Of a DNA stretch of 64,000 bases, positions 1 to 17,691 are shown piece by piece. Origin of the DNA: Ilyomonas limi. GTDB lineage: Bacteria > Bacteroidota > Bacteroidia > Chitinophagales > Chitinophagaceae. The notes under the pieces are model-generated. The model ran no database searches, was not told the DNA's origin, and saw only the letters and a list, made by a program, of their open reading frames with translations. The position numbers and the translations under genes are program-made. The stretch is taken from contig NZ_SZQL01000010.1 of the NCBI RefSeq assembly GCF_005233845.1, positions 1 through 64,000 of the forward strand, given 5' to 3'. Position 1 is the stretch's first letter. Each line of letters starts with the position of its first letter.

Positions 1-393
1 TTCATTCTATCGGGTCAGGTTATCCCTTAAAAGGTTGCTCCTCAGCAGCGCCTTTCTCCGTTTTGCCTGACAGCATAAATGTAACATAGGAAAATCTTTT
101 GACACAGTTTAAATTACACTCCCGTTTTCAGTCAGCAAACATCTATTTTTCTCGATTTATCTAATCAATGTTATAATTCCCCGTGCTGTTTCAGATGTGC
201 CATCAATATCTGTCAGTGAAATTATTCAAAGCTTAATGCAATGCTGTATACATGATTATATGTACAGTAATGCGAGGCTTGCTGTGTCAGCTATAGTTTA
301 AGAGCCGTCTACTCGATTGATAGAACACTTTTACTTAAAAAAAATTTAATTAACAATGAGGCATTGCTACATTCTTAATGCTGCGTGTGCACC
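1..393. other. left-edge gap with a T9SS sorting-domain scrap
   Basis: No intact gene is visible. On the minus strand 157-225 translates as the last ~22 residues of a gliding-motility-type C-terminal sorting domain (ISLTDID...GIITLIR then stop), closely resembling the end of the fragment at 11451-11880. An in-frame stop lies just upstream, so only the very 3' end of such a gene survives. I see nothing else in the gap. Confidence 0.55.
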
Positions 394-945: not shown

Positions 946-1043
946 AAAAATTGATTTAGTTGTTTTATTACAATAGCTAAAATTAATACTTTAAACACAA
1001 ATGTTTTATTACTCTGATGCAACAAACATTTTATTTTAAAGAA

Positions 1044-1960: not shown

Positions 1961-2625
1961 TCAAGGTATATAAGACTTGTCTATGACTAATTTATCGCCT
2001 GGTAAATCAACTTCAAACAAATAAGGAATGCGCACATACCGGCCAGTGATGTTTTTGTGACTATGAATAGACATTAACAGTTTGCCATCTAATGTGCGGA
2101 ACAACATTCCATGACGGTAATTAGGCGGTGTAATCGGGTCTTTCTCCTGAATCCAGAAACCATCGAGGGTGCCGCTTTTGAGTAAGCCACGCCTTGTGTA
2201 TATACGTCGTAAATCCAACTGGTCCATATCATTCCCAACTGTCCTGTTTTTGTTTGGAACAAGTAAGCGCCATCAGTTATTTTGTTCGGTATGTCATTGC
2301 CGTTTTCGTCTTTTTCAAGACTCCAGGGAGCGTCACTGGCACGGAACAACACCTTGCCTTTACCAATTGTCCCACTTAAATTTGGTTTCAGTTCCATATT
2401 TTCGATAGTGCCGTTCCAGTTCTGTAGCCATTCGTAGCAATAGACCATATAGAGTTTTCCATCTTTATCTATCCAAAAAGTTCTATCTAAAGTAGGCATA
2501 TCAACAGGTAAATAAATGGAATCCTTCATTGGTACATAAGGTCCATCAGGCTTATTGCTTACCAGTACGTGGCAGGCTCGCCGTTCTATGGCGTTTTCTC
2601 TAACGGTATCAATCTTGACGACTCA
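1961..2625 (-). pseudogene. GH43-like glycoside hydrolase remnant, frameshifted
   Basis: Two minus-strand frames make one protein. The upstream frame (2625 to ~2183) reads VLVSNKPDGPYVPMKDS... through YTQGVAYSK. The downstream frame continues from SGTLDGFWIQEKDPI to the stop at 1961. The switch falls at a run of four A residues near 2182, so one lost or gained base explains it. The motifs (DRTFWIDKDGKLYMVY, GPYVP, MLFRTLDGKLLMSIHS) are those of five-bladed-propeller GH43 arabinanase/xylosidase-like enzymes. The 5' part of the gene is missing; an in-frame stop lies near 2620. Its stop codon touches the IS5-type element, which suggests damage by transposition. Confidence 0.7.
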
Positions 2626-2935
2626 GTTGGTGAAGGTGGCAAAATAATAATATTTATTTCTGTAGGGGTGAATTTCAGCGGCCCAAATAATATAGATCTT
2701 CTTTAAAACTTTTAAATCAGAATATATTTGAAATTCTAAGCCTGAATACGATAACAGAAATTCTAAGCCTGGATCTTTAATTTATTAAATTCCAAATGAT
2801 ATAACGTAGAATTGATTTAGGAAAGTATATAACTACTTATCGTGCAGCTTTTGAAGATAATTCTACATTTTCGAAATTCCAGTTGCCTTGTGAAATAAAG
2901 CGTAGCACTTAAAGAGGACTTTTATTATAACTTTT
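2626..2935. other. gene-free stretch with a short direct repeat
   Basis: AT-rich spacer between the GH43 remnant and the end of the peptidase operon. A 15-bp sequence (gaaattctaagcctg) occurs at 2730-2744 and again at 2757-2771, 27 bp apart. No hairpin terminator was identified for the operon that ends at 2936. Confidence 0.5.
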
Positions 2936-3454
2936 TTATTGTTTAGAAGTAAGTTTTAAAATAGATTCTGGAATTGCATTAAATAGCGTTTTAATCAGTT
3001 CGATAATATCTTTAATTCCCTCGCGATTGCCAAGGACGTTTACTTCCCATCCTTTGCCTGTTTCATATTTTATTTTTGAGGTCGCTAAAAGCATTATAAA
3101 AGAAACAACACCACCCATAGCAAGAATAACCTCTGCGGATTGCTCATCGTCCTTGTAATTTTTAATGGCTTCGGCTAAGGCAGGCGCTGTGTTTTTTTCC
3201 TGGGCGAGTTGCAGCAAACTTGCCCTGGCAAATTTGATGGCTTCTTCTGATTCTAACGGCATGGAATATTGTTCCTGATTATCCATAACCGTTTTCATTT
3301 CCGGAATGTTTTTCACATTCGCCGGTAAATGCCTGATTATTGTTTCGGCGTCTGCATCAACCTTGTCGAACAGCGTTGTGCTAAAGTGATTAAAAAATCG
3401 CAACAGCCGAAAACCGTCCATATTTTCTATCAAACTTATTGTTTCTGATTTCAT
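2936..3454 (-). CDS. small one-helix membrane protein at the end of the CHAT/C25 operon
   Basis: A 172-residue protein I do not recognise. Residues 1-105 are mostly amphipathic helix. One hydrophobic segment, about residues 108-125 (VILAMGGVVSFIMLLA), is followed by a short basic/aromatic stretch (KIKYETGKGWEVNV) and a C-terminal helix (IIELIKTLFNAIP). It lacks a signal peptide, so it could sit in the inner membrane by this single helix. It starts 17 bases after the CHAT gene stop and is very likely co-translated with it. Its position suggests a membrane effector or a protease substrate. It is shorter than bacterial gasdermins and shows no gasdermin-like beta pattern, so I do not assign it to that family. 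Confidence 0.75.
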   Translation of the reverse strand: MKSETISLIENMDGFRLLRFFNHFSTTLFDKVDADAETIIRHLPANVKNIPEMKTVMDNQEQYSMPLESEEAIKFARASLLQLAQEKNTAPALAEAIKNYKDDEQSAEVILAMGGVVSFIMLLATSKIKYETGKGWEVNVLGNREGIKDIIELIKTLFNAIPESILKLTSKQ

Positions 3455-3471
3455 ATAAATAAATTTGGTTT

Positions 3472-5910
3472 TTATCTCCAGTCACCTGACAAGATCATGC
3501 CTGCCCAATAATAGGGGCCGTGGTTTTGAAAAGGCACTTCAGACATTATTTCGAGCATTGCCTTTTTGTAGGCGGCTGCTTTAGTAAGTTTTTCTTTAAG
3601 CCAATAGTGATAGAAGCGAATACAGAAATTGTTTGCCCATACGATTGAAATATTCCATCCGGCGGTCAACATGCTCCTAGCCCCGAGAAAGAAGGCTGCG
3701 TTTTCCATACCAAGAGCATCACCCCCTACGCCTTCTTTAGAACGTGCACTAACGCATGCCTGAAAAGTAACATGACTATTTTTCCAGCTTTTATCAGCAT
3801 CAAATAATTTGCAGGAATTTAGAAAATAACTTTTTTCAAAGTAATTAAATTTCGGATCTAAAGCAGGCAGCTTTTCACCATCTTTTAGTAGTAAGCCACT
3901 ATTGTAAAACGGATTTGCTTTTGCAGGATCAGTCCCGGGCGACGGAAAAACACCGTGTGTTGAAAAATGGATAAGTGAGTTTATGTAATCGTTTCTTGAA
4001 AATTTATCAAGGGAGTCAGCTTCGGATACTCCGTCAAAGGACGAGTAGTTTTTTGATAACCATTGTTTTACTTCTGAAAACTGCTGTATTTTTTCAGAAT
4101 TGTCCAGATCCTGCACTGCCGGTACCGTACAGCAAATAATTTTCGTTGGGAGAACAGGTGAATGTTCCAAAAGAGAGATTAATTGATACGCTCCGTGTAT
4201 CCTTGACAGCGAAAATTGCTGAATCAAATAACTGTTATTAAACAAAGCATATTGCAGAGGAAACAAAAACAATACTTCATGGGGCGAATAAATCAGGTGA
4301 TCACCCAAATTTAAATTTCCTTCCTCCAAAGCTCTCTTCAGAACATTGAGAAGCTTGCCTAAGTTCTCCGGAATATTAATCTTTTTGGTGAAAAACCCCT
4401 TAGTGGATTTGCTGTTCCATTCTTTGGGATCATCCAAATGGTCATCAACCCATTTCTTCATAACTGTTTTATCAACGTCAGGTGTACGCTCAACATAAAT
4501 CTTTCCGTTCGATGTCAGCAATACGCTGATAGAGTAGTCATCATACAAAAAGAAACTAAGATAAGATGCATGGTTCTTCAAAAGCAAAGAAGGTAATTTC
4601 TCAACGGGCAATTCATAATTAGCCACCTCCATTTCAGTATCTGATTGTTCTGCGATCGCATCTGCCAGCAGTCTGCCTTTTGAAGCTTCTATGGCTTTTA
4701 ATACACCTCTTTCATTCCCACTTCGGTGATATAGTTCTATAAGGCTTGGAAAAAGATATTCGAAAGTTTTAAATACACCCGCCCGTTCTTTTTTATTATA
4801 AATTGATGCGCGTTTATGCTCCAGGTTTACCCTTAATTCTTCTAAGGTGTCCGCTCCTTCGGCAGACAAACGCAGTCGTTTTTGGCAAATGTGGATACTC
4901 CACAATGTGTCGTTGGATTCGTCTATATATTTGCTTCTGAATTTGGGAAGTAGCTGTTGAAGGTCATGTAATGTGTTTTTCAACACATCTGGATTTGATT
5001 TAGTAGAGTCATTTAAAAATACACCCTGCAGATCGTAAAGTTTCAGGCGGAGATCCATTATGTTGTATTCCTCCTTTTCTTCACTTACCGTTTTAAAATA
5101 GTTATTAAATTTACGGTAAATACTTGTTGCATTATTAAATTGTTCGTTATTGTTTCCCGTATTTCCTATTAAGGGTCTTAACTGATTGATCATTTGGGAA
5201 ATTTCATTTGATTGTTGTGTTTCACCTTCGGATGTTTGCGTAAACATTTCACCAATAGCATCAATCATGTTTTTTAACTCAGCCTGCTGTTCTTCTGTTT
5301 CTGATTTTTTTGCTTCTTCAGAAGTAACACTGATTTCTCTGAATAATGCTTTTATTTTTGTTCCTAACCGCTCATAATTAATTCTTGAATAATAAGGAAT
5401 ATTACCAGGAGAAAGGCTTTGAAATATGCTTCTTGCCGTTTCAGGATTATCAATGGCGAGATATAATTCAACAGCATTCAACTGTGCAGAGATGAATTCG
5501 GGCTTGTTAAAATGTTTTTGGAAATCTTTGACCGTCCTGTCGTAAAATTCTATTCCTTCACTATAGCGGGCGCTATCGAGATATGATTTCGTAATGAAAT
5601 TGGCCGACGAAGCAGCAAAGTATAGTACTTCTTCTTTTCTCCTCTCAGCCGATTTAAATAGATAGTGATACACACATTCATACGTTGCTAATCCGTACAG
5701 CAAAGCATGATTGTAATTGCCGCCCTGCGCATAAGCGCTTGACATGGCGTTTAAGCTGCAAATACTATAAAATGGATCACCACTTGTCATCATCGCAAGT
5801 GAACTTTCAGTGTTGGCATTTTGTGGTGAATTCTTTATGAATTCTGTGATGAATTTAAAATCTCTTTTAAGGTATGCCCGGATAAGAATTTGAAAATTGA
5901 TTGAAGTCAT
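3472..5910 (-). CDS. TPR-CHAT caspase-like peptidase
   Basis: An 812-residue cytoplasmic protein. Residues 1 to ~420 are helical repeats of TPR type (for example YNHALLYGLATYECVYHYL and ELYHRSGNERGVLKAIEASK), interrupted by a polar, glutamate/glutamine-rich stretch at ~195-260. Residues ~430-812 form a CHAT domain, a clan CD cysteine peptidase fold. The catalytic pair is visible: His652 in IHFSTHGVF and Cys719 in VTFQACVSARS. The typical ending YYWAGMILSGDWR is present. TPR-CHAT proteins act as proteases in biological conflict systems, such as the type III-E CRISPR-associated craspase and gasdermin-linked proteases. No CRISPR locus accompanies this one. It lies 68 bases after the C25-like gene. 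Confidence 0.88.
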   Translation of the reverse strand: MTSINFQILIRAYLKRDFKFITEFIKNSPQNANTESSLAMMTSGDPFYSICSLNAMSSAYAQGGNYNHALLYGLATYECVYHYLFKSAERRKEEVLYFAASSANFITKSYLDSARYSEGIEFYDRTVKDFQKHFNKPEFISAQLNAVELYLAIDNPETARSIFQSLSPGNIPYYSRINYERLGTKIKALFREISVTSEEAKKSETEEQQAELKNMIDAIGEMFTQTSEGETQQSNEISQMINQLRPLIGNTGNNNEQFNNATSIYRKFNNYFKTVSEEKEEYNIMDLRLKLYDLQGVFLNDSTKSNPDVLKNTLHDLQQLLPKFRSKYIDESNDTLWSIHICQKRLRLSAEGADTLEELRVNLEHKRASIYNKKERAGVFKTFEYLFPSLIELYHRSGNERGVLKAIEASKGRLLADAIAEQSDTEMEVANYELPVEKLPSLLLKNHASYLSFFLYDDYSISVLLTSNGKIYVERTPDVDKTVMKKWVDDHLDDPKEWNSKSTKGFFTKKINIPENLGKLLNVLKRALEEGNLNLGDHLIYSPHEVLFLFPLQYALFNNSYLIQQFSLSRIHGAYQLISLLEHSPVLPTKIICCTVPAVQDLDNSEKIQQFSEVKQWLSKNYSSFDGVSEADSLDKFSRNDYINSLIHFSTHGVFPSPGTDPAKANPFYNSGLLLKDGEKLPALDPKFNYFEKSYFLNSCKLFDADKSWKNSHVTFQACVSARSKEGVGGDALGMENAAFFLGARSMLTAGWNISIVWANNFCIRFYHYWLKEKLTKAAAYKKAMLEIMSEVPFQNHGPYYWAGMILSGDWR

Positions 5911-5978
5911 TCTGTAGAATTAATTGAGGTGAGATGAAATATGAAAACAAATGCAACTTCAAACAAGCGAAAACTACT

Positions 5979-7784
5979 TCAATATGAAAGTTTCAATGTA
6001 GGATCTCCGAAAACGATATTACGATAAGGATGTGGAATTTGTCCTGCCACGTTTTCGTTACGCATCAGTTGAAGTATGCCGTCGCCAAGACATTGCCCCT
6101 GTTGCCACGCCTCATAAACCGGCGTGTAGTCCGCTGGTATACTGGTTACATTATGTGCAAGTACTGCTAAACCATTACACCGCATGAGGTAGGTTACCGC
6201 AAGATTTTGGGCGCCATACTGACGGTGTAATGGTGTGGCTGGTGAAATTCTCTCGCCGGCAGCGAGATATTGTGGCCGGTGTATGATATCACCCACATCA
6301 CATCCACCCAAGAGGTAAAATCTTGAATACGGAGAACGGTTTGGAAGTGCAAAGTGGTGCAATGCTTTTACAGAAGTTTGTCCTCCAGGCACACTTACGC
6401 TAAACACTGAGCCAGGACTCGTAAAGCTTTGAGGAAAGGCTGCCGGCACCACTTCTGTACTTCCCGGTTGTGCTGCAAAGTAATGATTAAGAAAGTCACT
6501 GTGCATCATATAGTAGCATACAAGATGCTCTTCCGAAAATGAGTTGAAGTAGTTTTCTATTGTCGCCCATTGTGTTGCGGGAAGGGAGTTACTATCTGCA
6601 TTCACTACAATGCTTGATTGTGTAACAGAATTCGTCCATTTATTGCTTTCCGATTCCCAGCCACCTGCAAAATCCAGGTCAAGAAATATATACCCCCGCC
6701 GTTGGCGCGATGTTGTCCGATGCTCGTGATTTCGATTAAAATAATCTACAAGAAGCCTCAGTTCTTCTTGTTCTGAATACTCCAGTCCACTTTGACCAGT
6801 ACGCCATGCTGATTGCGATGCCGTAATGCGGCCTACCCAAAACTTAGAATCTGCAGCATGCTTTTGATTAGTCCGTTCAGCGTGATGAACCTGCCACTGA
6901 GCAAGGGCGTGCGTAATAAAACCTGGCGCACTCCACTGATTGCGATTGTAAAGACTTCCATTCGGGTGGCGGGAATCATCGAATGGAAGCCTTCCGCCAA
7001 GATTGCTCCCGGGAGGAAAGGTGGGGGCTGTAGCCATCCACTCCCAGTACCCATGCGGATCAGCAAGTACTGCGTCAACCGAAAAATAATCCAATTCATG
7101 TTGTTCGAGTATTTGTCCAACTTGCCGGTCTTCAAGATTTACTATACCTGCGGTGGGGAAATCTCCAACCAGTAATACGCCCCCAAGCGTTTGTGCTGCA
7201 TGGTAAAACTTTTTAACGAATCGGTAGAGATCCAGAAATTCATCGGGTAAATGGCGGTGATAACGTTCCCTGGTTTCATGGCTGCGTACATCTAAACTGT
7301 ATGCTACTACTTCCCAGCCTTCGTTTTGCAGGTCATCAAAAAACCGGGTAAGTATTGATATTCCGTCAGAAAGGCTTGACAGGAGTGCTCCCGAAATTCG
7401 TTCTTCAACAATTACCAAAACACGCTGTGCTCCTGGTGAACTCGCCCTATAGTCAATAGGAAGAATTCGGGGGTTATCAAATGAGAGCTCCAATAAAGGC
7501 GAAGGCATTCGCCGGCCAAACCAGGTATAAGAACTTCCAGCCTGCAAAAAAGTTCCTCTGAGGTCATCGCCTCTAACCTTTGCAGAATATTGTTGATCAA
7601 TTCCGGATCGGGTAAACCTGAGTTCATCGTTGATGAATGATAATGAGGAGAGATTTTCGGTATTAGAAAGGTCGTCAAATTTTATTTGTCCATTTAAATT
7701 GTTACCAGCTTGCCATAAGTGTAAAGAAGCTGGATTTTCATTAGCGACAATACGCCACATCCCAAGGATTTCATTAAGTGTCAT
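5979..7784 (-). CDS. gingipain-type (C25-like) cysteine peptidase
   Basis: A 601-residue protein without signal peptide. Residues 1-92 form a small beta-rich domain (repeating L...G.W / YTWFG pattern). From ~120 onward the peptidase C25 fold is recognisable: RVLVIVEE (120s), the GGVLLVGDFPTA strand (~201-212), His428 in CYYMMHSDFLNHY as probable catalytic His, Cys495 in FYLLGGCDVGDII as probable nucleophile, and the C25 hallmark NIVFGDPTLKL at the C-terminus. C25 belongs to clan CD, like caspases and CHAT. Secreted gingipains carry a signal peptide and a sorting domain, both absent here, so this enzyme is probably intracellular. It starts 5 bases after the 141-residue gene. Cleavage specificity cannot be read from the sequence. 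Confidence 0.8.
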   Translation of the reverse strand: MTLNEILGMWRIVANENPASLHLWQAGNNLNGQIKFDDLSNTENLSSLSFINDELRFTRSGIDQQYSAKVRGDDLRGTFLQAGSSYTWFGRRMPSPLLELSFDNPRILPIDYRASSPGAQRVLVIVEERISGALLSSLSDGISILTRFFDDLQNEGWEVVAYSLDVRSHETRERYHRHLPDEFLDLYRFVKKFYHAAQTLGGVLLVGDFPTAGIVNLEDRQVGQILEQHELDYFSVDAVLADPHGYWEWMATAPTFPPGSNLGGRLPFDDSRHPNGSLYNRNQWSAPGFITHALAQWQVHHAERTNQKHAADSKFWVGRITASQSAWRTGQSGLEYSEQEELRLLVDYFNRNHEHRTTSRQRRGYIFLDLDFAGGWESESNKWTNSVTQSSIVVNADSNSLPATQWATIENYFNSFSEEHLVCYYMMHSDFLNHYFAAQPGSTEVVPAAFPQSFTSPGSVFSVSVPGGQTSVKALHHFALPNRSPYSRFYLLGGCDVGDIIHRPQYLAAGERISPATPLHRQYGAQNLAVTYLMRCNGLAVLAHNVTSIPADYTPVYEAWQQGQCLGDGILQLMRNENVAGQIPHPYRNIVFGDPTLKLSY

Positions 7785-7789
7785 ATTAT

Positions 7790-8215
7790 TTAATTTAATG
7801 TTTGTACAGTCGGCACATCTTCTAAATCACCAATGCCCTTTACATTTTTATTTCTTTGCCGATAACAGATTAAGTTAAGTGCATGTATTTTTCCAAAATC
7901 AATCCAGTTGTAATCAAAAAGACATTTATCTTCATTGTTATCAGGAGGTTTATTGGGATTAAATTTTTCTGTTTCAGTCATATTAAGTTTCGGCATTCTT
8001 ACATCGGTGACAAATCCTTCAAATAATTGAGAAATTAACTGATCTCCTTTCGCACTTTCTGATGTTAATTTTCTCTCAACAAATACAATGATTGCTTCAC
8101 GGTTTGTTACTGTACCGCCACTGATTTTTGATCCATAATCAACCCCCAATACTCCATCGTATTGAATGAACTTTTGCTTTGCATTTAAGTATGCATGAAA
8201 AAGTTTAGTATTCAT
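7790..8215 (-). CDS. small protein resembling the N-terminal domain of NAL1/trypsin-like proteases
   Basis: A 141-residue soluble protein, first gene of the peptidase operon. Residues 19-77 (GVLGVDYGSKISGG, REAIIVFVERKL, EGFVTDVRMPK) match the pattern GVGxGyK...E.AI.VFVxKKL...G..TDV that normally precedes the peptidase domain in bacterial NAL1/trypsin-like proteins. The peptidase domain itself is absent. The tail (residues 95-141) contains a distinctive DYNWIDFGKIHALNL segment of unknown role. As a free-standing domain beside two caspase-fold peptidases it may be an adaptor, inhibitor or substrate; that is inference. The start is the first ATG after an AT-rich leader; no TAnnTTTG promoter was recognised upstream. 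Confidence 0.65.
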   Translation of the reverse strand: MNTKLFHAYLNAKQKFIQYDGVLGVDYGSKISGGTVTNREAIIVFVERKLTSESAKGDQLISQLFEGFVTDVRMPKLNMTETEKFNPNKPPDNNEDKCLFDYNWIDFGKIHALNLICYRQRNKNVKGIGDLEDVPTVQTLN

Positions 8216-9080
8216 AAATTAAAATTTAATTTGTTGTCTACTCTTTGAATTGGATTTACGGCATACTCCTTTTTAGTTTATGTAGAGTTTATTTATTAAA
8301 TTGTATTGATCAGTAGTTGCAACAGGGCTGGGCAGTTGCTCAAGTCTTATCAATGATAAAACATATTTGATGTGTCAATTGTTAACCGCTACAATGTCGG
8401 TCTGTATGGTACATCACATAAGGATTACCATAATTGTATGAATTTTAAATAATTTTTATGCCTTTGATTATTATGCCTTTCGTTTTCGCTTGTGTTAATT
8501 GTTTAGTAACGTAAATGCAGAAATAATTTTGCCCTGCCTGCCAAAGCTATCAATGGAAATTGCTCAGGCACTCTCAAAGCTATCGTCAACTACTTCCCAT
8601 CACCATGTGAAAAACATCCTCTATTACACCGCGTTTAGCCAGGGAAATCAGTACGAACAATCAGGAAAAAAAAGTTAAGAATTGAATTTGATAGGCTAGT
8701 GGTTCTTATAATCGTCTAAAGGGGCTAAGTATTAGGCTTGAAATAAAGATAAAACATTTTTAATTATAACATCCAGACAAAAAATTTTACAATAAGAACA
8801 CATGAAGTTTTTAGCTCTTCCAAAAACTTTGCACAAATATATTACTACATATAAAGCAATATATAGCTTGTTTTGTTTTTTAATATCTCAAATGCACATT
8901 TGACTGCTTATGTCAATTCCTGATACCAAAAAAGCGAAATCAGATACCCGAAAAACGAAATTCTTTGTTTTCAAGTAGTACTGATACTCTGTTTTATTCT
9001 TTGTTTCCCCAAATTAAATTTCCTACCGCACCCATGAAACGAATCAATCATTATTTGTTGTTTTCCGTTTTACAATATTA
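8216..9080. other. AT-rich gene-poor stretch upstream of the peptidase operon
   Basis: No convincing gene. It should contain the promoter of the operon read leftward from 8215, but no clear box was found. Weak coding remnants are possible: a 42-codon plus-strand frame from ATG 8551 without recognisable homology, and a signal-peptide-like start (MKRINHYLLFSVLQY) from ATG 9034 that runs into the MITE at 9081. Confidence 0.4.
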
Positions 9081-9262
9081 GAGTTTATCTCAAAAACAGG
9101 TTATTCCAGGTATATATCTGAGCGATAGGGAGTAGACGATAATAGAGCCGCTATTACCAAAGGTGAAGAGAAGAAAAGATGGCAGGGGTAGACTGCCACG
9201 GCATCCGCACGAAGTACTCAGCCGCCATCCTTATACTACTGAGATATTTTTGAGATAATCTC
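9081..9262. mobile_element. IS5-derived MITE-like element
   Basis: A 182-bp unit bounded by 16-bp terminal inverted repeats: gagtttatctcaaaaa at 9081-9096 and tttttgagataatctc at 9247-9262, one mismatch between arms. Inside, a plus-strand frame reads DGRGRLPRHPHEVLS, resembling the N-terminal DGRGRPW...EVL motif of IS5-family transposases. The unit is therefore best read as an internal-deletion derivative of an IS5-family element. Its first base completes a TAG stop in the short frame starting at ATG 9034. No target-site duplication was evident. Confidence 0.6.
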
Positions 9263-9532
9263 TGGATATTTATCCAAACCTGGTGACCCAAAATTGTCAA
9301 ATACCTCATTTTTAGCAATCGTTAAAAAGGCTCACTGCTACATACGTACTTATGCTAGCACTTACCAACCAATAATACCTAAATACAGGATTTAGATGGA
9401 TATAACTGAGCATTCGCAAAAGCAAGTTTCAACTCTACCAATTATCCTACTTTTCATTTCAGTTCCTACACTGTCTACAAAGCGTGCCAGGTATTGCATC
9501 ATTATGTATCATACTGCATCATTGTTGCCCGT
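9263..9532. other. gene-free spacer
   Basis: No gene recognised. A plus-strand frame of about 44 codons after the MITE (GYLSKPGDPKLS...) stays open to near 9395 but has no recognisable family. It may be the continuation of the frame broken by the MITE. Confidence 0.3.
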
Positions 9533-9763
9533 CATTTCCTTTTTCATGTGATTTCGGTTACAAACTGGATTAGTAACCGGATTCGTCACAACATTATGGC
9601 TACTAAAGGCAAAGAAAGGCAACAATCGGCAAGAATAAGTGGCTGTAAAAGAATGTAAACCCCACAGAATGTGCGTAAACAGTGGATTGGTTACTTTCCG
9701 ATACAGAAAGTGAAATGTGTTTTTTTTAATGGATTGTAGCGTTTTTAGTAACGGAACAGTAAA
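9533..9763. repeat. attachment-site-like repeat with a copy of the mnmE 3' end (copy A)
   Basis: Three parts. The left arm (about 9533-9690) is clearly homologous to 17529-17673 next to mnmE; both contain ggttac-N11-gtaacc and the run aaaccccaca. The core ttactttccgatacagaa (9691-9708) equals the last 18 bp of mnmE at 17674-17691 apart from its first base, and on the minus strand reads F-C-I-G-K-stop. The right arm (9709-9763) repeats at 11434-11488 with about two mismatches. Left arm, core and right arm together resemble an attP, or a junction between two tandem integrated elements. Confidence 0.7.
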
Positions 9764-9774
9764 TTGAGTATAGA

Positions 9775-10018
9775 ATCAAGTACATTAGGCAATTTATAAT
9801 AATTTAGCTTCCATCTAGGTTTAGTCATGGTTCCATAAACGGAGTTGTAAAATTTCTTGCTTTAATTATATGTTTGTGGCGGTTTATGCTAATGCATCAA
9901 GTACATTAGGCAATTTATAATAATTTAGCTTCCATCTAGGTTTAGTCATGGTTCCATAAACGGAGTTGTAAAATTTCTTGCTTTAATTATATGTTTGTGG
10001 CGGTTTATGCTAATGCAT
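9775..10018. repeat. 121-bp perfect tandem duplication
   Basis: The unit starting atcaagtacattaggcaatt at 9775 is repeated exactly from 9896, with a period of 121 bp and identity continuing to 10018. No reading frame covers it. The perfect identity indicates a recent duplication. With only two copies and no spacers it is not a CRISPR array. Confidence 0.9.
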
Positions 10019-10212
10019 TTAAGTGTTATCATTAAGCATTATCAATTTGTTTAAGTTGCAGCCAACAACTGCCCTTTCCGGAAGGAGCGACATTGACAAA
10101 ACAGAAGCTGAAGAAAGATAAATAGCTAAACGAACTATTCTTTCAATTCATAGTAATTGTCCAGCCGCTCCTTTTGAGGACGAATGTAGGAGGAAGCAGT
10201 TCTATTTTTGTT
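10019..10212. other. spacer without recognised features
   Basis: Nothing identifiable between the tandem duplication and the cupin gene. Confidence 0.4.
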
Positions 10213-10584
10213 CTAAGTTTTAGCAAATTGGTCAGCACTCAACACTTCGATTCCAACGAAATCTTCACTCCCCTCCACCCAAGCATCATGTCCTGGAGGA
10301 ATGGTGTAAGATTCACCTCCTTTAATTGTCTTCTGTGTGCCATCATTCATGCGCACGGTAAGCGTTCCTGATACTGCATATCCAACATGGGAAAGCTGGC
10401 ATGAATCAGTGTGAACTACGGGCTTAATGCATTGTGACCATCGCCATCCCGGTTTCATGTTTAAGCGTCCAATAGTAAACCCTTCCAGCCGGACAATCTC
10501 GACTTTTGTCTTATCAGGCTGCCGAATCTCATCCGGGGTTTCATGAGATTTCGTTTCGAATTTTTTTACTGTTACCGGATCCAT
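10213..10584 (-). CDS. cupin domain protein
   Basis: About 123 residues when started at the internal ATG (MDPVTVKKFETKSH...); a longer start at 10638 would add 18 poorly conserved residues. The two cupin motifs are visible: WRWSQCIKPVVHTDSCQLSH...SGTLTV and GESYTIPPGHDAWVEGSE. The family keeps a W-R-W plus H-T-x-S-C-Q core and an IPPGHDAWV turn, typical of small single-domain cupins of unknown substrate. A metal centre is expected from the His residues, but the reaction cannot be inferred. The gene stands alone between repeat-rich gene-free regions and may be cargo of the mnmE-linked element. Confidence 0.75.
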   Translation of the reverse strand: MDPVTVKKFETKSHETPDEIRQPDKTKVEIVRLEGFTIGRLNMKPGWRWSQCIKPVVHTDSCQLSHVGYAVSGTLTVRMNDGTQKTIKGGESYTIPPGHDAWVEGSEDFVGIEVLSADQFAKT

Positions 10585-11423
10585 GTGATTTAAATTTATT
10601 TTGCCTACTTTTTTGCATGATGCAGGGATTTTCGGCATTTTTCCCTTTTTTGTTTCAGGAAGGATCAGTTGACAAACTAACCATTTATTAAAGATAGGAT
10701 AATATTTGGGGCGTCTGTTACTGTTGCCATCAACGTCCGGCGATATCTGCTGAAGTATATGAATTTTAGAATACTTCAGTTCATTCTATTGCTGAAGCAA
10801 TGTCGAAGTTCTTCCGCTTGGTTTTATATTGTCATTGACCGCCTTTTTTGAAAGCAGTTGTAGTGAGCAGTTGTTTCTAATGCCGCTTGCAAGATGATTG
10901 ATACGAGAATGGCTCTATTTAGCGTTTAAAGCTACCGTAATCCGGTTATATGTTTTTCTTGGTGAAATCCTGCTAGGACGAGCAATATCCGTTTGGGGAA
11001 GAAATAAACGTTATCGAAGGATAGGTGTCTTTTATGCCCTTTCGTTTAATGGTGCGTGTTTATACTTATTATATTATTGAATATAATTGGCTTTACTCCT
11101 TTGATCAACTGTCTAAAGATCATTTGCGCATGTGTGCATAGCATAGTGAAAGAATAATAAGAATACCACAAATAATACAAATAATACAATTGTTATCCTG
11201 TTAAGACCTTCCTTATTATAAGATATTATGTTGGTTTACTCTGATCAGATTTCTATTGGATTGCAATCTCCTGTTTAGCATTTGTAATATTTATATTATT
11301 TGGATTATTTCACATTTTGTCCAAGTACATAAACACACAAAATAGGGTAGAGGTGAATTCGCCAGTTACCTCCCTCTTTGACAATCAAATCATATTATCT
11401 AAATGGCAAATTTTATCTCGTGA
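10585..11423. other. long gene-free region with one hairpin
   Basis: No credible gene. An inverted repeat of 9-bp perfect arms (ctgaagtat 10750-10758 and atacttcag 10771-10779) with a 12-nt loop lies upstream of the cupin. The remainder is AT-rich with short repeated words (aataatacaaataatac near 11170) and no recognisable element. Confidence 0.5.
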
Positions 11424-11488
11424 CGATACAGAAAGTGAAATGTGTTTATTTTAATGGATTGTAGCGTTTTTAGTAACGGAATAGTAAT
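11424..11488. repeat. partial attachment-site-like repeat (copy C)
   Basis: Starts with the half-core cgatacagaa (11424-11433), followed by the same right arm as copy A (9709-9763), with about two differences over 54 bp. The left half of the core and the left arm are missing. It overlaps the 3' end of the T9SS fragment at 11451-11880, so part of that reading frame's tail is made of the repeat. Confidence 0.65.
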
Positions 11489-11880
11489 GCGAAACAGAAA
11501 CGTGATGAATATCTATTTCATCATTATATCTAATCATCGTTACAGTCCCCTGTGCTGCTGCAGATATGCCATCATTATCAATCAGTGAAATCTTCCATAT
11601 ATACATTCCTGCATCTTGATCAACATTGTTAATAGTTCCATTCCAGCCTTTGGCAATGTCGTAACATTCAAACACTTTCTGTCCAAAGCGGTTGTAAACA
11701 ATCATATCAAAGTGTTTTACAGGAAACGGATACTTTACTTTGAATACGTCATTGAGTCCATCCTTATTGGGTGTAAAGGCAGAAGGCATCATCAGTTTAC
11801 AAAGCTGGCTGGTGATACGAATAGAATCAGTTAGCACGCCGCACTGATTACTTGCTGTTAACCTATAGACACCTGCTCAT
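11451..11880 (-). pseudogene. T9SS type B sorting domain fragment (gliding-motility C-terminal domain)
   Basis: The frame encodes the typical C-terminal cell-surface sorting domain: SAFTPNKDGLNDVFKV, FDMIVYNRFGQKVFE, GWNGTINN, AGMYIWKISLID, GTVTMIR. It is used by Bacteroidota to route proteins through the type IX secretion system. The 5' part is lost; a stop lies in frame just before AGVYRLTASNQCG near 11873. The normal stop after the terminal ...IR is also gone, so the frame runs on for about 25 residues (YNDEIDIHH...NATIH) into the att-like repeat. The rest of the parent adhesin gene is absent. Confidence 0.8.
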
Positions 11881-12234
11881 TCGCTTTTTGTATTTTCAAT
11901 GTTCGGTAATGCGCCGTAACCTTTAGTCAAAGGAGTGCATCGATTGAAATAGAATAGCCATTTGGAGGAGGTTGGCAGTACTTTACATATGCTGAGCATA
12001 TTAGGATTTATTCTTTTCTGTTCTATACTGCTCAGCACAATCCAGAACAGGAGCTTACATAAGGAAATTACGCTAACTGGAGAGGAATATTATGAACGAT
12101 TGGTAAAGGCAAGGACCGGGGGCTGAGGTTTAATGATTGAAGACTTTGAAGAATCATTTTCATCCTTTACTTCGAGGTGCGCTATCGCTAACACCTCGAA
12201 GAGCGGGAATAAGGGCTTTAAAATCTTTTGAAAA
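11881..12234. other. gap with a tiny plus-strand ORF and a strong hairpin
   Basis: A 45-codon plus-strand frame, 11989-12126 (MLSILGFILFCSILLS..., one hydrophobic helix then a polar tail), follows a purine-rich ggaggagg about 20 bases upstream. It may be a small membrane protein, but I have no homologue to support it. The only other feature is the hairpin at 12170-12201, listed separately. Confidence 0.35.
12170..12201 (-). terminator. perfect hairpin downstream of prpD
   Basis: Arms cttcgaggtg (12170-12179) and cacctcgaag (12192-12201) pair perfectly around a 12-nt loop, 34 bases beyond the prpD stop. There is no T tract on either side, so it may be a processing or mRNA-stabilising structure rather than a classical terminator. 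Confidence 0.45.
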
Positions 12235-13686
12235 TTATATGACCATCATATCTATAAACTCATCAACTGGTGTATTAACAAGCCTATAAAAATCGAGTGA
12301 ATTTTCCAATACTTTTCTTTGCTGTTTTTCAGGAAAAACACGCGCAAGATTAATCCTGAACTTATTTATGAGTTGCGGTATTCCTTCTTCTCTTCTACGT
12401 TTATGCCCAATCGGATAATCGACCTGAACCTCCTCTAAAACAGTTCCGTCATTTAATTCAATAGTTATTGCATTGGCAATAGAACGTTTGGCAGGATCGT
12501 GATAATCTTTTGTAAACTGAACATCTTCCACGCATTCTATTTTATCACGCAGCACATCAATCCAAATATCTGAAGCAATATCATCTTCATAATCCGAAGC
12601 TGTTAATCGCCCATAAATCAACGGCACAGCTACCATGTATTGAATACAATGATCGCGATCGGCAGGATTGTTCAACGGACCTTTTTTATCAATGATTCGA
12701 ATCGCAGCTTCGTGTGTGCGAATCGTTATTTTCCGAATATCTTCCGCTGATTTATTCAAAGCCTTTAATTTATAATGTAATGTCATCGCCGCTTCCACAG
12801 CCGTTTGCGCATGAAACTCTGCCGGGTAAGAAATTTTAAATAACACGTTTTCCATTACATAGGAACCATAATCTCTTTGAAATGTAAATTGATTTCCCTT
12901 GAAGCACACATCATAAAATCCCCAGGTTTTCGCAGTAAGCACAGAAGGATAGCCCATTTCGCCGGTTTGTGCAATCATTGCTAAACGCACTGCTCTTGAA
13001 GTGGCATCACCGGCTGCCCAAGATTTACGGCTTCCTGTATTTGGTGTATGCCGATATGTTCTTAAAGATTGTCCGTCAACAAATGCCAGTGAGAGTGCAT
13101 TAACTAACTCTTCATGCGTTAGCCCTAAAAGTTTTCCTACAACTGCTGTTGATGCAACCTTTACCAATATGACATGATCTAAACCCACTTTATTAAAAGA
13201 GTTTTCGAGTGCCAATACGCCCTGTATTTCATGCGCGCGAATCATCAGGTCCAATACATCTTTCATAAAGAGTGCAGGTTTGCCTTCTGCAATAGATGTT
13301 CTGGAAATCCAATCTGCAGTTGCCAAAATGCCTCCTAAATTATCAGAGGGATGCCCCCATTCTGCTGCCAGCCAGGTATCGTTGAAATCCAGCCAGCGAA
13401 TCATAGTGCCAATATTAAAGGCAGCATGAACCGGGTCTAATTGAAACTGCGTTCCCGGCACCTTAGCACCATGTGGGACTATTGTACCTTTTACGACTGG
13501 TCCTAAGAGTTTGGTGCACGCAGGATAAGTTAAGGCTTCAAATCCACAGCCAAGTGTATCTAAGAGGCAATAATGCGCAGTTTTCCAGGCTAAGTCACTT
13601 TTAATCTCATAGTTTAACACATAATCCACTATATCTACCAATACTTTGTCTGGTTGTGTTCTTTCATTTATGACAGGCGATGCCAT
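12235..13686 (-). CDS. prpD: 2-methylcitrate dehydratase PrpD
   Basis: 483 residues, full length for the MmgE/PrpD family. Recognisable blocks are the N-terminal [10 protein letters not shown], the conserved [12 protein letters not shown]...[16 protein letters not shown] region, [16 protein letters not shown], and the C-terminal [17 protein letters not shown]. PrpD dehydrates 2-methylcitrate to 2-methyl-cis-aconitate in the propionate-degrading methylcitrate cycle in the cytosol. It is the last gene of prpBCD and starts 19 bases after prpC. Hydration to 2-methylisocitrate would need an aconitase encoded elsewhere. No acnD/prpF pair is present, consistent with the PrpD-type route. Confidence 0.92.
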
Positions 13687-13705
13687 TATTTATTTAATTT
13701 TAAAT

Positions 13706-14863
13706 TTAGGTTGTACGATTTTCGATTGAGATAAAGGCTCTATTTTCCGGGCCGATATAATTTGCGCTCGGGCGAATAATTTTTCCATCCTGCCGTTGCT
13801 CAATAATGTGTGCGCTCCACCCTGTAACTCTCGATACAACAAACAGTGGCGTAAACATCATGGTTGGTACGCCCATCAGATGATAGGAAACTGCCGAAAA
13901 CCAGTCGAGGTTGGGAAACATTTTCTTTTCATTCCACATTACCGTTTCTAATCGTTCTGCAATATCAAACAATAGCCTATCACCCGCTTCGTCAGAAAGT
14001 TGTTTTGCCACTTTCTTAATCACTTCATTTCTTGGATCTGAAACAGTATAAACCGGGTGGCCAAAACCAATGATTACTTCTTTATTTGTTAATCGTTTTT
14101 TTATATCGGCTTCCGCTTCATCGGGCGAATGATAACGACTTTGAATATCATAAGCTACTTCGTTGGCACCCCCATGTTTTGGTCCGCGCAAGGCACCAAT
14201 GGCGCCGGTTACAGCAGAATAAATATCAGAACCTGTTCCTGCAATTACTCTTGCTGTAAAAGTAGAAGCATTAAACTCATGCTCTGCATACAACACCAAA
14301 GAAATTTGCATTGCTTTTATCCAGGAATCCGAAGGCTTTTTGCCATGTAACAGGTGAAGAAAATGTGCACCAATGGTATCTTCATCCGTTACTGTTTCTA
14401 TTTCTTGTTTATTGTTTGCATAATGATACCAATACAATAAGGCGGAACTGAAAGATGCCAATAACCTGTCCGCAATGGTTTTTGCGCCTGCTTCACTATG
14501 GTTATCTTCTTCCGGTTCTATAGTACCAAGTGCCGAAGCGTAGGTACGCATTACATCCATCGGGTGCGCTGTGGGAGGAATGTTCTTCAGTATATTTTTT
14601 ACCGCATGGGGTAAACCTCGTAATGACTTCAACTTATTTTTATAATCATCCAATTGCTGTTGCGTTGGCAATGAACCGTAAATTAATAAATAAGCCACTT
14701 CCTCAAATGTTGCGTTAGCTGCAAGGTCCAAAATATTATAACCGCGGTAATGTAAATCGTTGCCACTTTTACCAACACTGCACAGCGCTGTATTGCCTGC
14801 TGCAACACCGGAGAGTGCCACACTTTTCTTGGGCTTGAATGTTGTTTGCTGATTAGTTTCCAT
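13706..14863 (-). CDS. prpC: 2-methylcitrate synthase PrpC
   Basis: 385 residues with the citrate-synthase fold. Family signatures are [18 protein letters not shown] at the N-terminus (the methylcitrate synthase pattern), [25 protein letters not shown] (containing an active-site His), [13 protein letters not shown] and [13 protein letters not shown]. It condenses propionyl-CoA with oxaloacetate. Its ATG overlaps the prpB stop by one base (TAATG), indicating translational coupling. A housekeeping citrate synthase is a possible alternative, but the neighbouring prpB and prpD settle the assignment. Confidence 0.93.
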
Positions 14864-15804
14864 TATTGCTTCTTTTTAAACAGGCTATCTAATTTTTGTT
14901 CGTAATCATAATAACCGATGCTTTGATACAAAGCTTCTCTTGTTTGCATGGTGCTTAAAACATGTTGCTGCGTGCCGTCTTTACGAATATGTTCATATGC
15001 ATTTTGCGCAGCTTTATTGGCGGCACGAAAAGCAGACAAAGGATATAGTATCAGTTCAACACCAGCAGCTTTTAATTCATCAACGGTGTACATTTTTATC
15101 ATACCAAACTCTGTAATATTTGCCAGCACAGGAATGCCGGTTGCCTCAACAAACTTCCTGTAAAGCGCTAAGTCATTCACCGCTTCGGCAAAAATAAAGT
15201 CGGCACCGGCTTCTTTATAAGCCACCGTTCTTTCTAATGTTTTTTCCAAACCTTCATTAGCAAATGCATCCGTTCTTGCACCAATTACAAACTGTTCATC
15301 TGTTCGTGCATCAACAGCAGCTTTCAACCTGTCCACCATTTCTTCTTTGCTCACCACTTCCTTGCCTGGTCTGTGCCCGCAGCGTTTAGCGCCAACCTGG
15401 TCCTCAATATGCAATGCCGCAGCACCGGACTTTATCAATGACTTTACTGTGCGTGCAATATTGAAAGCAGAAGGACCGAAACCCGTATCTACATCCACCA
15501 ACAAAGGCAATGTACAAACGTTGGTTATGCGATTAATATCAATCAGCACATCTTCCAATGTGGTAATACCTAAATCAGGAACACCCAATGAACCTGCAGC
15601 CACACCGCCACCGGAAAGATAGATAGCATTAAAACCGGCTTGTTGCGCAAGTAACGCATGGTTCGCATTGATTGTTCCAACAATTTGTAAAGGCTTTTCT
15701 TGTTTCATTGCTTCGCGAAAACGAAGACCAGCAGAATATATTTGTGTTGTTTCCTGCATTAGTAATAATGATTTTAAATTTAAAACATTAGCATTTGTTT
15801 GCAT
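14863..15804 (-). CDS. prpB: 2-methylisocitrate lyase PrpB
   Basis: 313 residues from the first ATG. The internal ATG at 15759 ([18 protein letters not shown]) fits the usual PrpB N-terminus better. The ICL/PEP-mutase fold is shown by [25 protein letters not shown] (metal-binding Asp), the catalytic loop [10 protein letters not shown] and [11 protein letters not shown]. It cleaves 2-methylisocitrate to pyruvate and succinate. It is first in the prpBCD operon, with the bidirectional hairpin 15830-15869 just upstream, so the promoter must lie in the short gap between them. No prpR-type regulator is adjacent. Confidence 0.93.
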
Positions 15805-15829
15805 TATTTCGGCGAAGATAACATGATAT

Positions 15830-15869
15830 AAAAAGAATAAGACCTTTCAAAAAAGGTCTTATTCTTTTT
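15830..15869. terminator. bidirectional hairpin between the nrdA fragment and prpB
   Basis: 18-bp perfect arms (aaaaagaataagaccttt at 15830-15847 and its complement at 15852-15869) with a 4-nt loop, rich in A on one side and T on the other. It would end transcription coming from 15901 and insulates prpBCD. Confidence 0.85.
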
Positions 15870-15900
15870 AAGGCATATGACTTATTGCTTATACTCAGAA

Positions 15901-16266
15901 TTACGAACCACAACTGATGCGGCCATCCTGCATGGAGCAGGTTGCGCCGGTGACATTTTCATCTTCTTTTTTACTCAGTATGATTTGTGATTTTAATTTT
16001 TTTTCACCTGCAATTGGCTCAACAACCTGGTTTCCTTTTTCAACTGTGAACTGCACTGCCTGTGCAGCAGCTTTTGTACGCAGATAATACATACCTGTTT
16101 TCAATCCTTTTTTCCGCGCATAAAAGTGCATTGACGTAAGCTTTGAGGTGGTGGGATTTACCAACAATGAATTCAGTGATTGCGACTGGCAGATAAATGC
16201 ACCGCGATCTGCTGTGTCATACTGTAGGCTTCCCCGAAGTTCAGCCAGTGAATTTAGAGTTAACAA
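15901..16266 (-). pseudogene. nrdA: 3' fragment of ribonucleotide reductase alpha subunit (nrdA)
   Basis: The ~120 residues match the extreme C-terminus of class Ia Nrd[30 protein letters not shown] and the signature [14 protein letters not shown] tail with the redox cysteines follows ([13 protein letters not shown]). Full NrdA is several times longer, and the rest is missing because the IS3-type element begins at about 16268. The apparent start is a TTG formed near the junction. The final cysteine pair is unusually spaced; an Arg (CGC) occupies the place where a CxxC first Cys would fit, one base from TGC. This is a non-functional remnant unless expressed as a fragment. Confidence 0.85.
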
Positions 16267-16300
16267 ACTGAAGTAATGTTAACTTTAAATTTTATACACA

Positions 16301-16564
16301 ATGAAAAGGAAGTTTACCGAAAGCCAGATAGTGGCTGCTATTAAGAAACAGGAAAGCGGCATAGCAGTAAAAGATATATGCCGGGAGTTATCCATCAGCG
16401 ATGCAACATTTTATAACTGGAAAGCTAAATATGGCGGCATGGAAGCATCAGATGTAAAAAGGCTTAAAGAACTGGAAGCTGAAAATGCTCAGCTTAAAAG
16501 CATGTTTGCAGAGATGAGCATTGAAAACCGTGCACTGAAACATCTACTGGAAAAAAAGTTATAA
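16301..16564 (+). CDS. IS3-family OrfA (HTH transposase subunit)
   Basis: 87 residues: an HTH_Tnp_1-type helix-turn-helix (KRKFTESQIVAAIKKQESG, CRELSISDATFYNWKAKYGG) and a leucine-zipper-like C-terminal coil (ELEAENAQLKSMFAEM...LKHLLEKKL). OrfA of IS3 elements binds the terminal repeats. The gene ends with the heptamer A AAA AAG (16552-16558), in the zero frame and two codons before the stop. This is the classical -1 slippery site used by IS911-type elements to make the OrfAB fusion transposase. OrfA is intact although its partner is broken. Confidence 0.85.
   Translation: MKRKFTESQIVAAIKKQESGIAVKDICRELSISDATFYNWKAKYGGMEASDVKRLKELEAENAQLKSMFAEMSIENRALKHLLEKKL
16552..16558 (+). promoter_or_regulatory. 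A_AAA_AAG programmed -1 frameshift site
   Basis: The heptamer is phased with orfA as A|AAA|AAG. After a -1 slip the next codon is GTT at 16558, leading into VITSEVKREAVQYLV of orfB, which is the expected OrfAB fusion junction. Confidence 0.75.
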
Positions 16565-17397
16565 CGTCTGAAGTGAAACGGGAAGCTGTTCAGTACCTGG
16601 TAACAGAAGAGCAGCTTAGTAACCGAAAGGCGTGTAAACTGGTAGGTATATCCCGTACTACCTGCCAGTACAAAAGAAGATAAAAGATGACAGCGAGGTG
16701 CAGACAGCCCTTAGGGAGCTCACCGGATAAACATGCAGCTATAGGCTACTGGCAATGCTGCTACCGGCTGTGGGACAAGATACCAGTGGAACCATAAGCG
16801 CATCTACAGAGTGTATACGAGCATGAAGCTCAACATACGCAGAAGGGCAAAGAAAAGACTGCCTGACAGGATTAAACAACCACTTACAGTGCCTAATGCA
16901 CCTAATGAGATGTGGAGCATAGATTTTATGAGTGACAGCCTGGTAGATGGCAGGAAGTTCCGCCTCCTGAATGTAATAGATGACTTTAATCGGGAGTCGC
17001 TGGCTATAGAAGTGGACACCTCACTGCCATCCTTAAGGGTCATCCGGGTGCTGGAAAGATTGATAACAGACAGAGGAAAACCACTTGCCATTAGAACAGA
17101 TAACGGACCTGAGTTTATCAGCCATCAATTGCAGCAGTGGTGTGAGAAGAATGCTATTACGATACAGTACATTCAACCGGGCAAGCCCATGCAGAATGCT
17201 TATATTGAAAGAAAGAACGGAAGTATTAGAAAAGAACTGCTGGATGCTTACCTGTTTTACAGTCTTACAGATGTAAGAGCTATGAGTGAAGAGTGGCGGG
17301 CAGATTACAACCATCAAGACCGCACTCAGCATTAAGTTATCTCTCACCCGTAAAGTTTATGGAAGCTTGCAAGGAGAAAACGCAGCAGCTTTATCCA
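16558..17397 (+). pseudogene. IS3-family OrfB integrase, multiply frameshifted
   Basis: The rve-type integrase is readable in pieces: SEVKREAVQYLVTEEQLSNR and CKLVGISRTTCQYKRR, a shift near 16680, KDDSEVQTALRELT, a shift near 16725, [18 protein letters not shown], another near 16785, then the long piece 16811-17316. The last piece carries MWSIDFMSD (first D), [16 protein letters not shown] (second D) and the E region YIERKNGS. One missing base near 17317 separates it from the usual tail [12 protein letters not shown]. At least four lesions make it non-functional. The age of the lesions suggests an old insertion. Confidence 0.8.
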
Positions 17398-17528
17398 CAA
17401 ACGGCGACAGCGTAAAACCCTCTCAAATTGAAGAGAGCCGTTTAGTGGATAAAGCGGTCAAAACTTGACCATCTAACAATTAGAAAACTCTAATTTCTAT
17501 TGGCTCTAAAACAAGGGAAGCTGACAAT

Positions 17529-17691
17529 TTCCCTTTTCATGCTAAAATGGTTACAAACTGAATTAGTAACCAGAATCGTCACAACAAAATGGCGAACAAA
17601 GGCAAAGAAAGGCAAGAATAATTAGCTGTATATGAATGTAAACCCCACAAACACTGCGTAAACAGTGCATCGGCTACTTTCCGATACAGAA
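17529..17691. repeat. mnmE-side attachment-site-like repeat (copy B)
   Basis: Homologous over about 145 bp to 9533-9690, with the conserved ggttac-N11-gtaacc palindrome, gtcacaaca, aggcaaagaaaggcaa and aaaccccaca words. It ends in the core ctactttccgatacagaa (17674-17691), which is the coding 3' end of mnmE. The layout (gene end = core, repeat arm outside the gene) is that of an integrated element using the mnmE 3' end. Elements such as SGI1 use the same position in the orthologous gene of Enterobacteria. Confidence 0.7.

Follow-up and report, generated by a model that had tools for sequence, protein, structure and literature searches.

Why the end of a housekeeping gene should be repeated together with the sequences on both sides of it is the question raised by the first 64,000 bases of contig C2 of Ilyomonas limi (hereafter the window; genome of 5.88 Mb in 70 contigs). 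The gene is mnmE, which occupies 17674-19056 on the minus strand and whose protein ends in FCIGK-stop. Its last 18 base pairs (bp), CTACTTTCCGATACAGAA, recur at 9691-9708 as TTACTTTCCGATACAGAA. The two copies agree at 17 of 18 bases and, as a reading of the window from sequence only had stated, the sole difference lies in the stop codon, TAG in mnmE and TAA in the copy. That sequence-only reading proposed tandem site-specific elements at mnmE, and the conserved two-sided ends that we find in other genera, together with a recombinase family at the site, bear it out. With a probability of about 0.77, we consider the locus to be a tandem array of site-specific elements that were inserted serially at the 3' end of mnmE, lack an integrase of their own and are served in trans. 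We favor this explanation because conserved arms flank the repeat at mnmE, because a cognate integrase is encoded near one of these arms in relatives and because a wider integrase family occupies the same site.

A repeated core with two conserved arms

Both flanks of the 18-bp core are repeated, as the sequence-only reading had noted. On the left, where the two core copies share a flank, 9605-9708 matches 17588-17691 at 83% over 104 nucleotides (nt) and 9534-9626 matches 17527-17619 at 83% over 93 nt, the two registers being offset by 10 nt because of a small indel. On the right, the flank common to 9709-9763 and 11434-11488 is recovered as a match of 9699-9762 to 11424-11487 at 97% over 64 nt. 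The half-core reported around 11434 is also real (CGATACAGAA, at 11424-11433) but marks a different type of end. We call the left arm of the core E1, the right arm, which is repeated at 11434, E2, and the other end type E3. A search of the genome with 9534-9763 returned five places, all on C2 or contig C25 and in a single orientation. When two mismatches at most are allowed, a 16-base core pattern occurs at 16 places in the genome (nine for the pattern read backwards as a control), and the four exact ones are on C2 and C25. The E1-core-E2 units of the genome are likewise confined to these two contigs, all in the same orientation.

Models of the arms were built from 14 sites in ten genomes for E1 (mean column identity 68%) and from twelve sites for E2 (65%). 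The E1 model matched in 41 of 394 Chitinophagaceae genomes (26 of 101 genera) and the E2 model in 29 of 394 (20 of 101 genera); with 8 (E1) and 11 (E2) candidates scored per genome, these genome counts are lower bounds. The genus of the window's organism is represented by its own genome alone, and the comparisons are with other genera and their same-genus pairs. In the assembled regions with an E1 match, this match abuts the mnmE stop in 26 of 37; counted from the gene, 26 of the 33 regions that hold the mnmE end have an abutting E1. Neither fraction is a prevalence figure because the regions were picked for E1 or E2 matches. Nine E1 regions have no mnmE in the stretch examined (C25, G127, G204, G371, G218, G093, G059, G255 and G226), and seven regions with an mnmE end have no abutting E1 (G193, G285, G275, G390, G098, G001 and G170). 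The E1 regions of G193 and G390 also contain mnmE, farther along, and G098 and G001 gave no E1 profile match on reading. The E1-positive genomes G027, G162 and G361 lie outside this region reading. A motif resembling TTAGTAACGGAATAGT, with at most three mismatches, is present in 11 of 12 E2 and 7 of 14 E1 sites (shuffles, 0 and 0.14%), and the shared arm motif is thus firm for E2 and partial for E1. On sequence grounds, E1 and E2 are conserved attachment-site arms.

Integrases at the same site and the end of mnmE

In a relative assembled as one contig (G215), an 11.7-kb integrase-bearing element lies between E2 (33103) and an E1 that adjoins mnmE (44802). By Pfam it encodes a tyrosine integrase, two HTH_17 proteins, the second match being slightly under the curated cut-off, and a BT4734-like/DUF3987 protein. 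One of the HTH_17 proteins we take, from its position, to be Xis-like. Six cognate integrases were recognized in the 41 E1-bearing genomes, each 0.6-3.2 kb from an E1 arm. Five of them are 56-67% identical to that of G215; all six match Phage_int_SAM_5 (PF13102) and Phage_integrase, and three also match Arm-DNA-bind_5 (PF17293). With the integrase profile these six genomes reach at least 680 bits and the next best 450. The best match in the window's own genome scores 124 bits and none is of cognate strength, and a search of that genome with the first 110 residues of one integrase gave no match. PF00589 has nine matches in the genome and none on C2 or C25, in agreement with the earlier remark that the window holds no integrase.

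A scan of named genomes for the wider integrase family gave at least 430 loci, of which we considered the best 80. By name all of these are Bacteroidota except L252, which is labelled Candidatus Planktophila and is perhaps a misbinned contig. In 74 of the best 80 loci mnmE lies upstream of the integrase on the same strand (66 within 1 kb, 72 within 5 kb), and this holds for 72 of 76 once the four loci that supplied the alignment are removed; the window elements share only their ends with such elements. Among the six exceptions one locus begins at the core (L216), one has mnmE on the opposite strand (L198) and in four (L189, L193, L226 and L247) no mnmE was seen. An E1 match (E-value 0.01) was found in 7 of the 10 loci whose integrase identity is at least 54% and in none of the other 70. 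Seven loci of the more distant clade were read, and their elements hold an integrase, helix-turn-helix (HTH)-like genes and long genes that look BT4734-like, in similar order. The one checked with Pfam, L233, carries type I restriction-modification-like cargo (HsdM and a specificity subunit), and the distant-clade mnmE elements are perhaps a defence-carrying family. Integrases of this clade (L199-L268) mostly follow mnmE within 1 kb in many Bacteroidota.

The half-cores next to E1 have a property in common. All 31 that were translated, internal ones included, encode Gly-Lys-stop with varying codons and stops, a count biased by the inclusion of the core in the E1 model and made without the weaker E1 matches (G144, G126, G303, G327, G347, G352, G382, G255, G204 and G226 among them) and the weakest sites of G193, G248 and G381. 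The MnmE C-termini readable in the best 80 named loci all follow F-C-[I/V]-G-K (75 of 75; FCIGK in 74 and FCVGK in one). From the half-cores and the near-invariant C-termini, it appears that the element brings the last two MnmE codons and the stop. In the mechanism that we propose, each complete element would consist of the core flanked, in the usual case, by an mnmE-proximal E1 arm of about 130 bp and a distal E2 arm of about 60 bp, arranged much as in the attP of lambda-type integrases. Full-size relatives that have the same E1 and E2 ends and also target mnmE would supply the tyrosine integrase for insertion, and possibly for excision, in trans. The incoming E1 half-core would take the place of the mnmE end and restore the invariant Gly-Lys-stop, so that the gene would survive each event. 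The 31 half-cores thereby suggest a route for the repeated harmless use of a conserved gene end.

The E3 ends behave differently. Their half-cores translate as FCIVTR (window), FCIVT (G281 and L190) and FRIVPI (C25), and all four junctions of E3 plus half-core abut an E2 arm, none mnmE. To the left of the window's half-core, a stretch of 129 bp (11295-11423) is similar to the sequence at the equivalent position on C25 and in G281 and L190. The E3 profile was built on three of the four junctions and L190 is its only independent case (E-value 1.8e-5). We also considered whether E3 is what originally followed mnmE, and dropped this idea because one array contains E3 twice and because the E3 half-core does not encode Gly-Lys-stop. 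An E3-like end suspected by eye beside mnmE in G193 gave no E3 profile match and was left uncounted. A tentative extension, which we regard as possible though more doubtful than not, is that the mnmE end of Chitinophagaceae serves as a docking site at which small two-armed cassettes, sometimes of a single gene and piling up mostly in one orientation, are shuffled by passing integrases in parallel to integrons, with the E3 class docking on the distal core of a resident element and not on mnmE. The E3 part of this picture, the boldest, rests on four junctions, and a fifth weak E3-like match (G127b, 20 bits) with no core or E2 behind it does not agree with it.

Integrase-less intervals, rival explanations and known systems

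Altogether 28 integrase-less intervals were listed in 14 genomes. Two of the intervals, C25:31441-31642 and window 1-9690, are truncated at contig ends and would be parts of a single element should C25 and C2 be contiguous. In 25 of the 28 a search for Int, Xis-like, HTH and BT4734-like proteins found no trace of them (the same search detected three of three autonomous elements as a control). All eight intervals whose two ends both have strong profile matches are among these 25 (two each on C25 and in the window and one each in G215, G163, G281 and G390), and no such backbone gene is present in the six intervals of the window's own genome. The median size is 2.7 kb (26 intervals), 23 of 26 measure 1.0-5.3 kb, and several of 1.0-1.4 kb have a single gene between their ends. 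Open reading frames (ORFs) of at least 150 amino acids (aa) are directed with mnmE in a ratio of 44:7 (35:2 without G381), and mnmE's direction prevails in 20 of the 21 intervals that have a majority. This count excludes five insertion-sequence ORFs and the 202-bp C25 end, and the only window ORF that it places on the plus strand (356-976) overlaps a more plausible gene on the minus strand. The longest array seen, G381:C5:669334-704500 (L139-L141), has nine cores in 35 kb, the leftmost weak; E2 recurs in it and, by eye, so do a few kinds of right end.

The content of the arrays differs between relatives. The sequence-only reading had suggested comparing the region downstream of mnmE in related genomes. 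Of 14 pairs of genomes from the same genus, 13 have mnmE or the side upstream of it in common, and the remaining pair, G093/G371, with no mnmE in the stretch, has only the E1 region in common. The array side is mostly unlike, the exceptions being the integrase element of G070/G385 and a few genes; in G208 the array-side stretch is short. The nearest case to an occupied-versus-differently-occupied site is G137/G248, of one genus, where both flanks are common and the DNA between the far-left flank and E1 is dissimilar (31.8 and 9.6 kb). An invariant arrangement and the lack of any recombinase family had been named beforehand as grounds for abandoning the proposal; instead the arrangements vary and the family exists. 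One cargo gene recurs: a Fic gene and about 80 bp before it are 80-84% identical in DNA among G390 and G215, of one genus, and G120, of another, and all copies are in mnmE array regions, that of G215 adjoining a weak E2 only.

Several observations weigh against serial insertion of elements served in trans. Only 8 of the 28 intervals are strong at both ends, and elsewhere an end is weak, reduced to a core or cut by a contig end; the weakest E1 and E2 model matches may be chance. The TTAGTAACGGAATAGT motif is found in only half of the E1 arms, and the two in the window have 5 and 6 mismatches to it; the E3 ends do not match the E1 pattern. The link between E1 and integrase is partly circular, the integrases having been chosen by nearness to E1, and four of the seven E1-positive loci are profile sources, leaving an independent count of 3 of 6, one at E-value 0.0067. 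Moreover, the E1 near the integrase abuts mnmE in just three of the six cognate cases (G215, G385 and G070); in G127 the contig ends there, and about 25 kb to the right of E1 showed no mnmE in G218 and G093. The pair G070/G385, both with an integrase element, also shares its array side, and the strand bias of G381 is weak (9:5). An Xis-like piece is kept in 3 of the 28 intervals, and some intervals would therefore be decayed full elements. Finally, the array may be stranded, since no cognate integrase was found in its own genome, and excision, circles and transfer would be steps beyond what the sequences record.

The strongest rival, which we nevertheless hold to be unlikely, is that the intervals are immobile relics, i.e. 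full elements that inserted, lost their backbone in place and were pushed left by the next arrival. Accretion by decay of this kind corresponds to the three-step route described for cis-mobilizable elements (CIMEs) in the consulted part of PMC5704250, according to which tandem partners are generally decayed elements. Besides the three Xis-like remnants, a decayed junction on C25 near 8689 (E2 at 20 bits) and the CHU_C and ribonucleotide-reductase tail fragments in the prpBCD element of the window would fit such a history. The 25 intervals without backbone trace, all eight strong-ended ones among them, the several single-gene intervals of 1.0-1.4 kb and the Fic gene in mnmE arrays of two genera are harder to reconcile with it. 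Somewhat less likely again is an integron-like platform, on which cassettes would be shuffled by dedicated machinery, mnmE read-through would act as promoter and the integrase would come from a resident or passing element. The small, sometimes single-gene intervals, the 44:7 orientation, the nine cores of G381 and the recurring Fic gene are consistent with this possibility; against it, the ends are two different arms, and an integrase of the close clade is absent from 35 of the 41 E1-bearing genomes, although a few of the 41 hold more distant relatives at 370-450 bits. Membership in the SGI1 family of trmE-integrating mobilizable islands is very improbable: the gene, the gene end, the 18-bp repeat and the tandem arrays are the same in the portions of PMC9035990 and PMC5704250 consulted, but the window elements have no integrase and those of their relatives are Bacteroidota proteins with PF13102 (PF17293 in three of six). 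We count as refuted the notion that the repeats arose by chance or assembly and have no attachment-site meaning. Contig edges with insertion-sequence ends do lie left of the window, but the arms are conserved across genera and the integrase family sits at the same site; the repeats are not chance because all five places are on C2 and C25 in one orientation and because the E1 and E2 profiles match in other genera.

An array of elements inserted serially and served in trans can be set beside several known systems. In integrons, short units, most of them in one orientation, are densely arrayed and rely on a tyrosine recombinase that they do not encode themselves. The mnmE arrays are also dense, with short and mostly co-oriented units and the recombinase elsewhere, but their elements end in two different arms (about 130 and 60 bp), their docking point is the end of a housekeeping gene, and no resident integrase stands beside the array (none of the nine PF00589 matches is on C2 or C25). 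CIMEs, as treated in the consulted part of PMC5704250, which also deals with accretion in tandem and with SGI1 arrays that reach six copies, are likewise integrase-less elements stacked at one gene end with ends common to integrase-bearing relatives. Here too there is no integrase and, through E1 and E2, two ends match a cognate element, with base-exact boundaries that are estimates and with E3 instead of E1 in the cupin element. Unlike CIMEs, the mnmE arrays are compact, with several single-gene intervals, up to nine cores in a row, mostly no backbone remnant and cargo co-oriented with the target gene. The SGI1-related elements of PMC9035990, in the sections consulted, integrate at the trmE (mnmE) 3' end with 18-bp repeats, form tandems of unlike islands and derive the last bases of the attL junction from the circular form, as would the mnmE junctions. 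The window array is in a different phylum and has different cargo and no integrase of its own, and the SGI1 parallel drawn in the sequence-only reading holds for the gene end and the 18-bp core as an analogy of target and repeat; we do not claim membership. The Bacteroidetes integrases of CTnDOT and NBU1 are placed in one subgroup with the SGI1 recombinase in the consulted part of PMC8138268. The mnmE integrases are also Bacteroidota tyrosine integrases; mnmE is a different target, and the window elements lack an integrase. Neither mnmE nor trmE is named in the main text of PMC12884075, and titles and abstract openings of the open-licence literature contained no report of mnmE arrays in Bacteroidota. 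The mnmE integrase family across Bacteroidota, the dense compact integrase-less arrays and the second end type seem to be new with respect to that literature. Judged by its sequence, the window array is real and largely explained as a variant of tandem accretion with integron-like features, any present mobility being putative.

The elements of the window, their cargo and the continuation on C25

The features of the window are collected in Table 1.

Table 1. Features of the mnmE array in the window; element boundaries are predicted.
Feature	Position	Strand	Basis
Core and target site: 18-bp end of mnmE, where the array meets the gene	17674..17691	-	sequence; C-termini of relatives
E1 arm, mnmE-proximal end of prpBCD element	17527..17673	+	profile match 17558-17691, 97 bits (site included in profile)
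Integrase-less prpBCD element, E2 to E1, 6.2 kb	11434..17673		ends by repeats and profiles; without backbone genes
prpB (PEP mutase / isocitrate lyase family; named from operon context)	14863..15804	-	Pfam
prpC (citrate-synthase family; named from operon context)	13706..14863	-	Pfam
prpD (MmgE/PrpD)	12235..13686	-	Pfam; sole genome match at E 1e-60
E2 arm, distal end of prpBCD element	11434..11488	+	profile match 11419-11493, 61 bits (site included in profile)
E3 end with half-core CGATACAGAA, right end of cupin element	11295..11433	+	73% match on C25 over 148 nt; G281, L190
Integrase-less cupin element, E2 to E3, 1.7 kb, one cupin gene	9709..11423		repeats, profiles, Pfam
Cupin-domain protein, 141 aa	10213..10638	-	Cupin_2 match under Pfam's curated cut-off
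E2 arm, distal end of cupin element	9709..9763	+	profile match 9692-9767, 63 bits (site included in profile)
Internal core copy; minus strand still encodes Gly-Lys-stop	9691..9708	+	sequence and translation
E1 arm, right end of next element leftward	9534..9690	+	profile match 9565-9708, 124 bits (site included in profile)
Right part of third element, E1 end at 9690	1..9690		left end probably E2 at C25:31441

The sequence-only reading had advised a look to the left of the window for a further core copy and a tyrosine recombinase. More core copies are indeed present on C25 (31.6 kb), the probable left neighbor, but no tyrosine recombinase (no PF00589 match). C25 has a core with E2 at 24635, in whose left flank no E1 was recognized, an E1-core-E2 unit at 25822-26021 and an E2 at about 31441; the orientation of all three is that of the window. 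The right end of C25 (31512-31642) and window 1-132 read as the two ends of one insertion sequence, with inverted-repeat ends by eye and a transposase start that we take to be IS256-like. Each end is flanked by the 8-bp GTTTTCAG, of which C25 has a single copy and the window two. These matching ends with their shared flank suggest that C25 is the immediate left neighbor of the window, separated from it by a single insertion sequence. The left end of the third element is then probably the E2 at C25:31441. Read from the left, the joined array would comprise E2, an isomerase-like gene and E1 (1.3 kb); E2, a two-component system made of a response regulator and a histidine kinase with a serine-hydrolase-like gene between them, and E3 (5.5 kb); E2, the insertion sequence, an operon with a CHAT gene and E1 (to 9690); E2, the cupin gene and E3 (1.7 kb); and E2, prpBCD and E1 (6.2 kb), followed by mnmE.

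The cupin gene, prpBCD and possibly the peptidase operon had been suggested as cargo, and the two-sided ends conserved in other genera support this. Besides prpD, prpC and prpB, the prpBCD element contains an IS3-type ORF pair that looks interrupted and two gene fragments, a CHU_C type IX secretion domain adjoining E2 (11451-11837) and a ribonucleotide-reductase tail (15901-16266), which look as if they were a captured chromosomal stretch. Of 195 family genomes, 20 have prpD; around the gene in 8 of the remaining 19 carriers, 5 to 15 kb on each side showed no mnmE and no E1 or E2 match. Integrase-less mnmE elements can thus hold whole pathways, and accessory genes in Bacteroidota that an integrase search misses become visible because the ends mark the element. 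The mnmE arrays may amount to a reservoir similar to integrons that makes use of ordinary integrase attachment sites. A general Pfam scan of 20 proteins of the window's own genome revealed no transfer genes, no search having been aimed at them.

The part of the third element within the window has a DUF937-like gene, an IS4/5-type transposase and, co-oriented at 2936-8215, genes for a CHAT-domain protein (812 aa), a 601-aa protein, a NAL1_N-like protein of 141 aa (match barely above the Pfam cut-off) and a 172-aa protein of unknown kind. The 601-aa protein has no Pfam match and by eye resembles a cysteine peptidase. A PADLOC scan of seven cargo proteins, these four among them, assigned no family. 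Next to E2 within the cupin element, positions 9775-10016 form a perfect 121-bp tandem duplication of two copies that are 100% identical.

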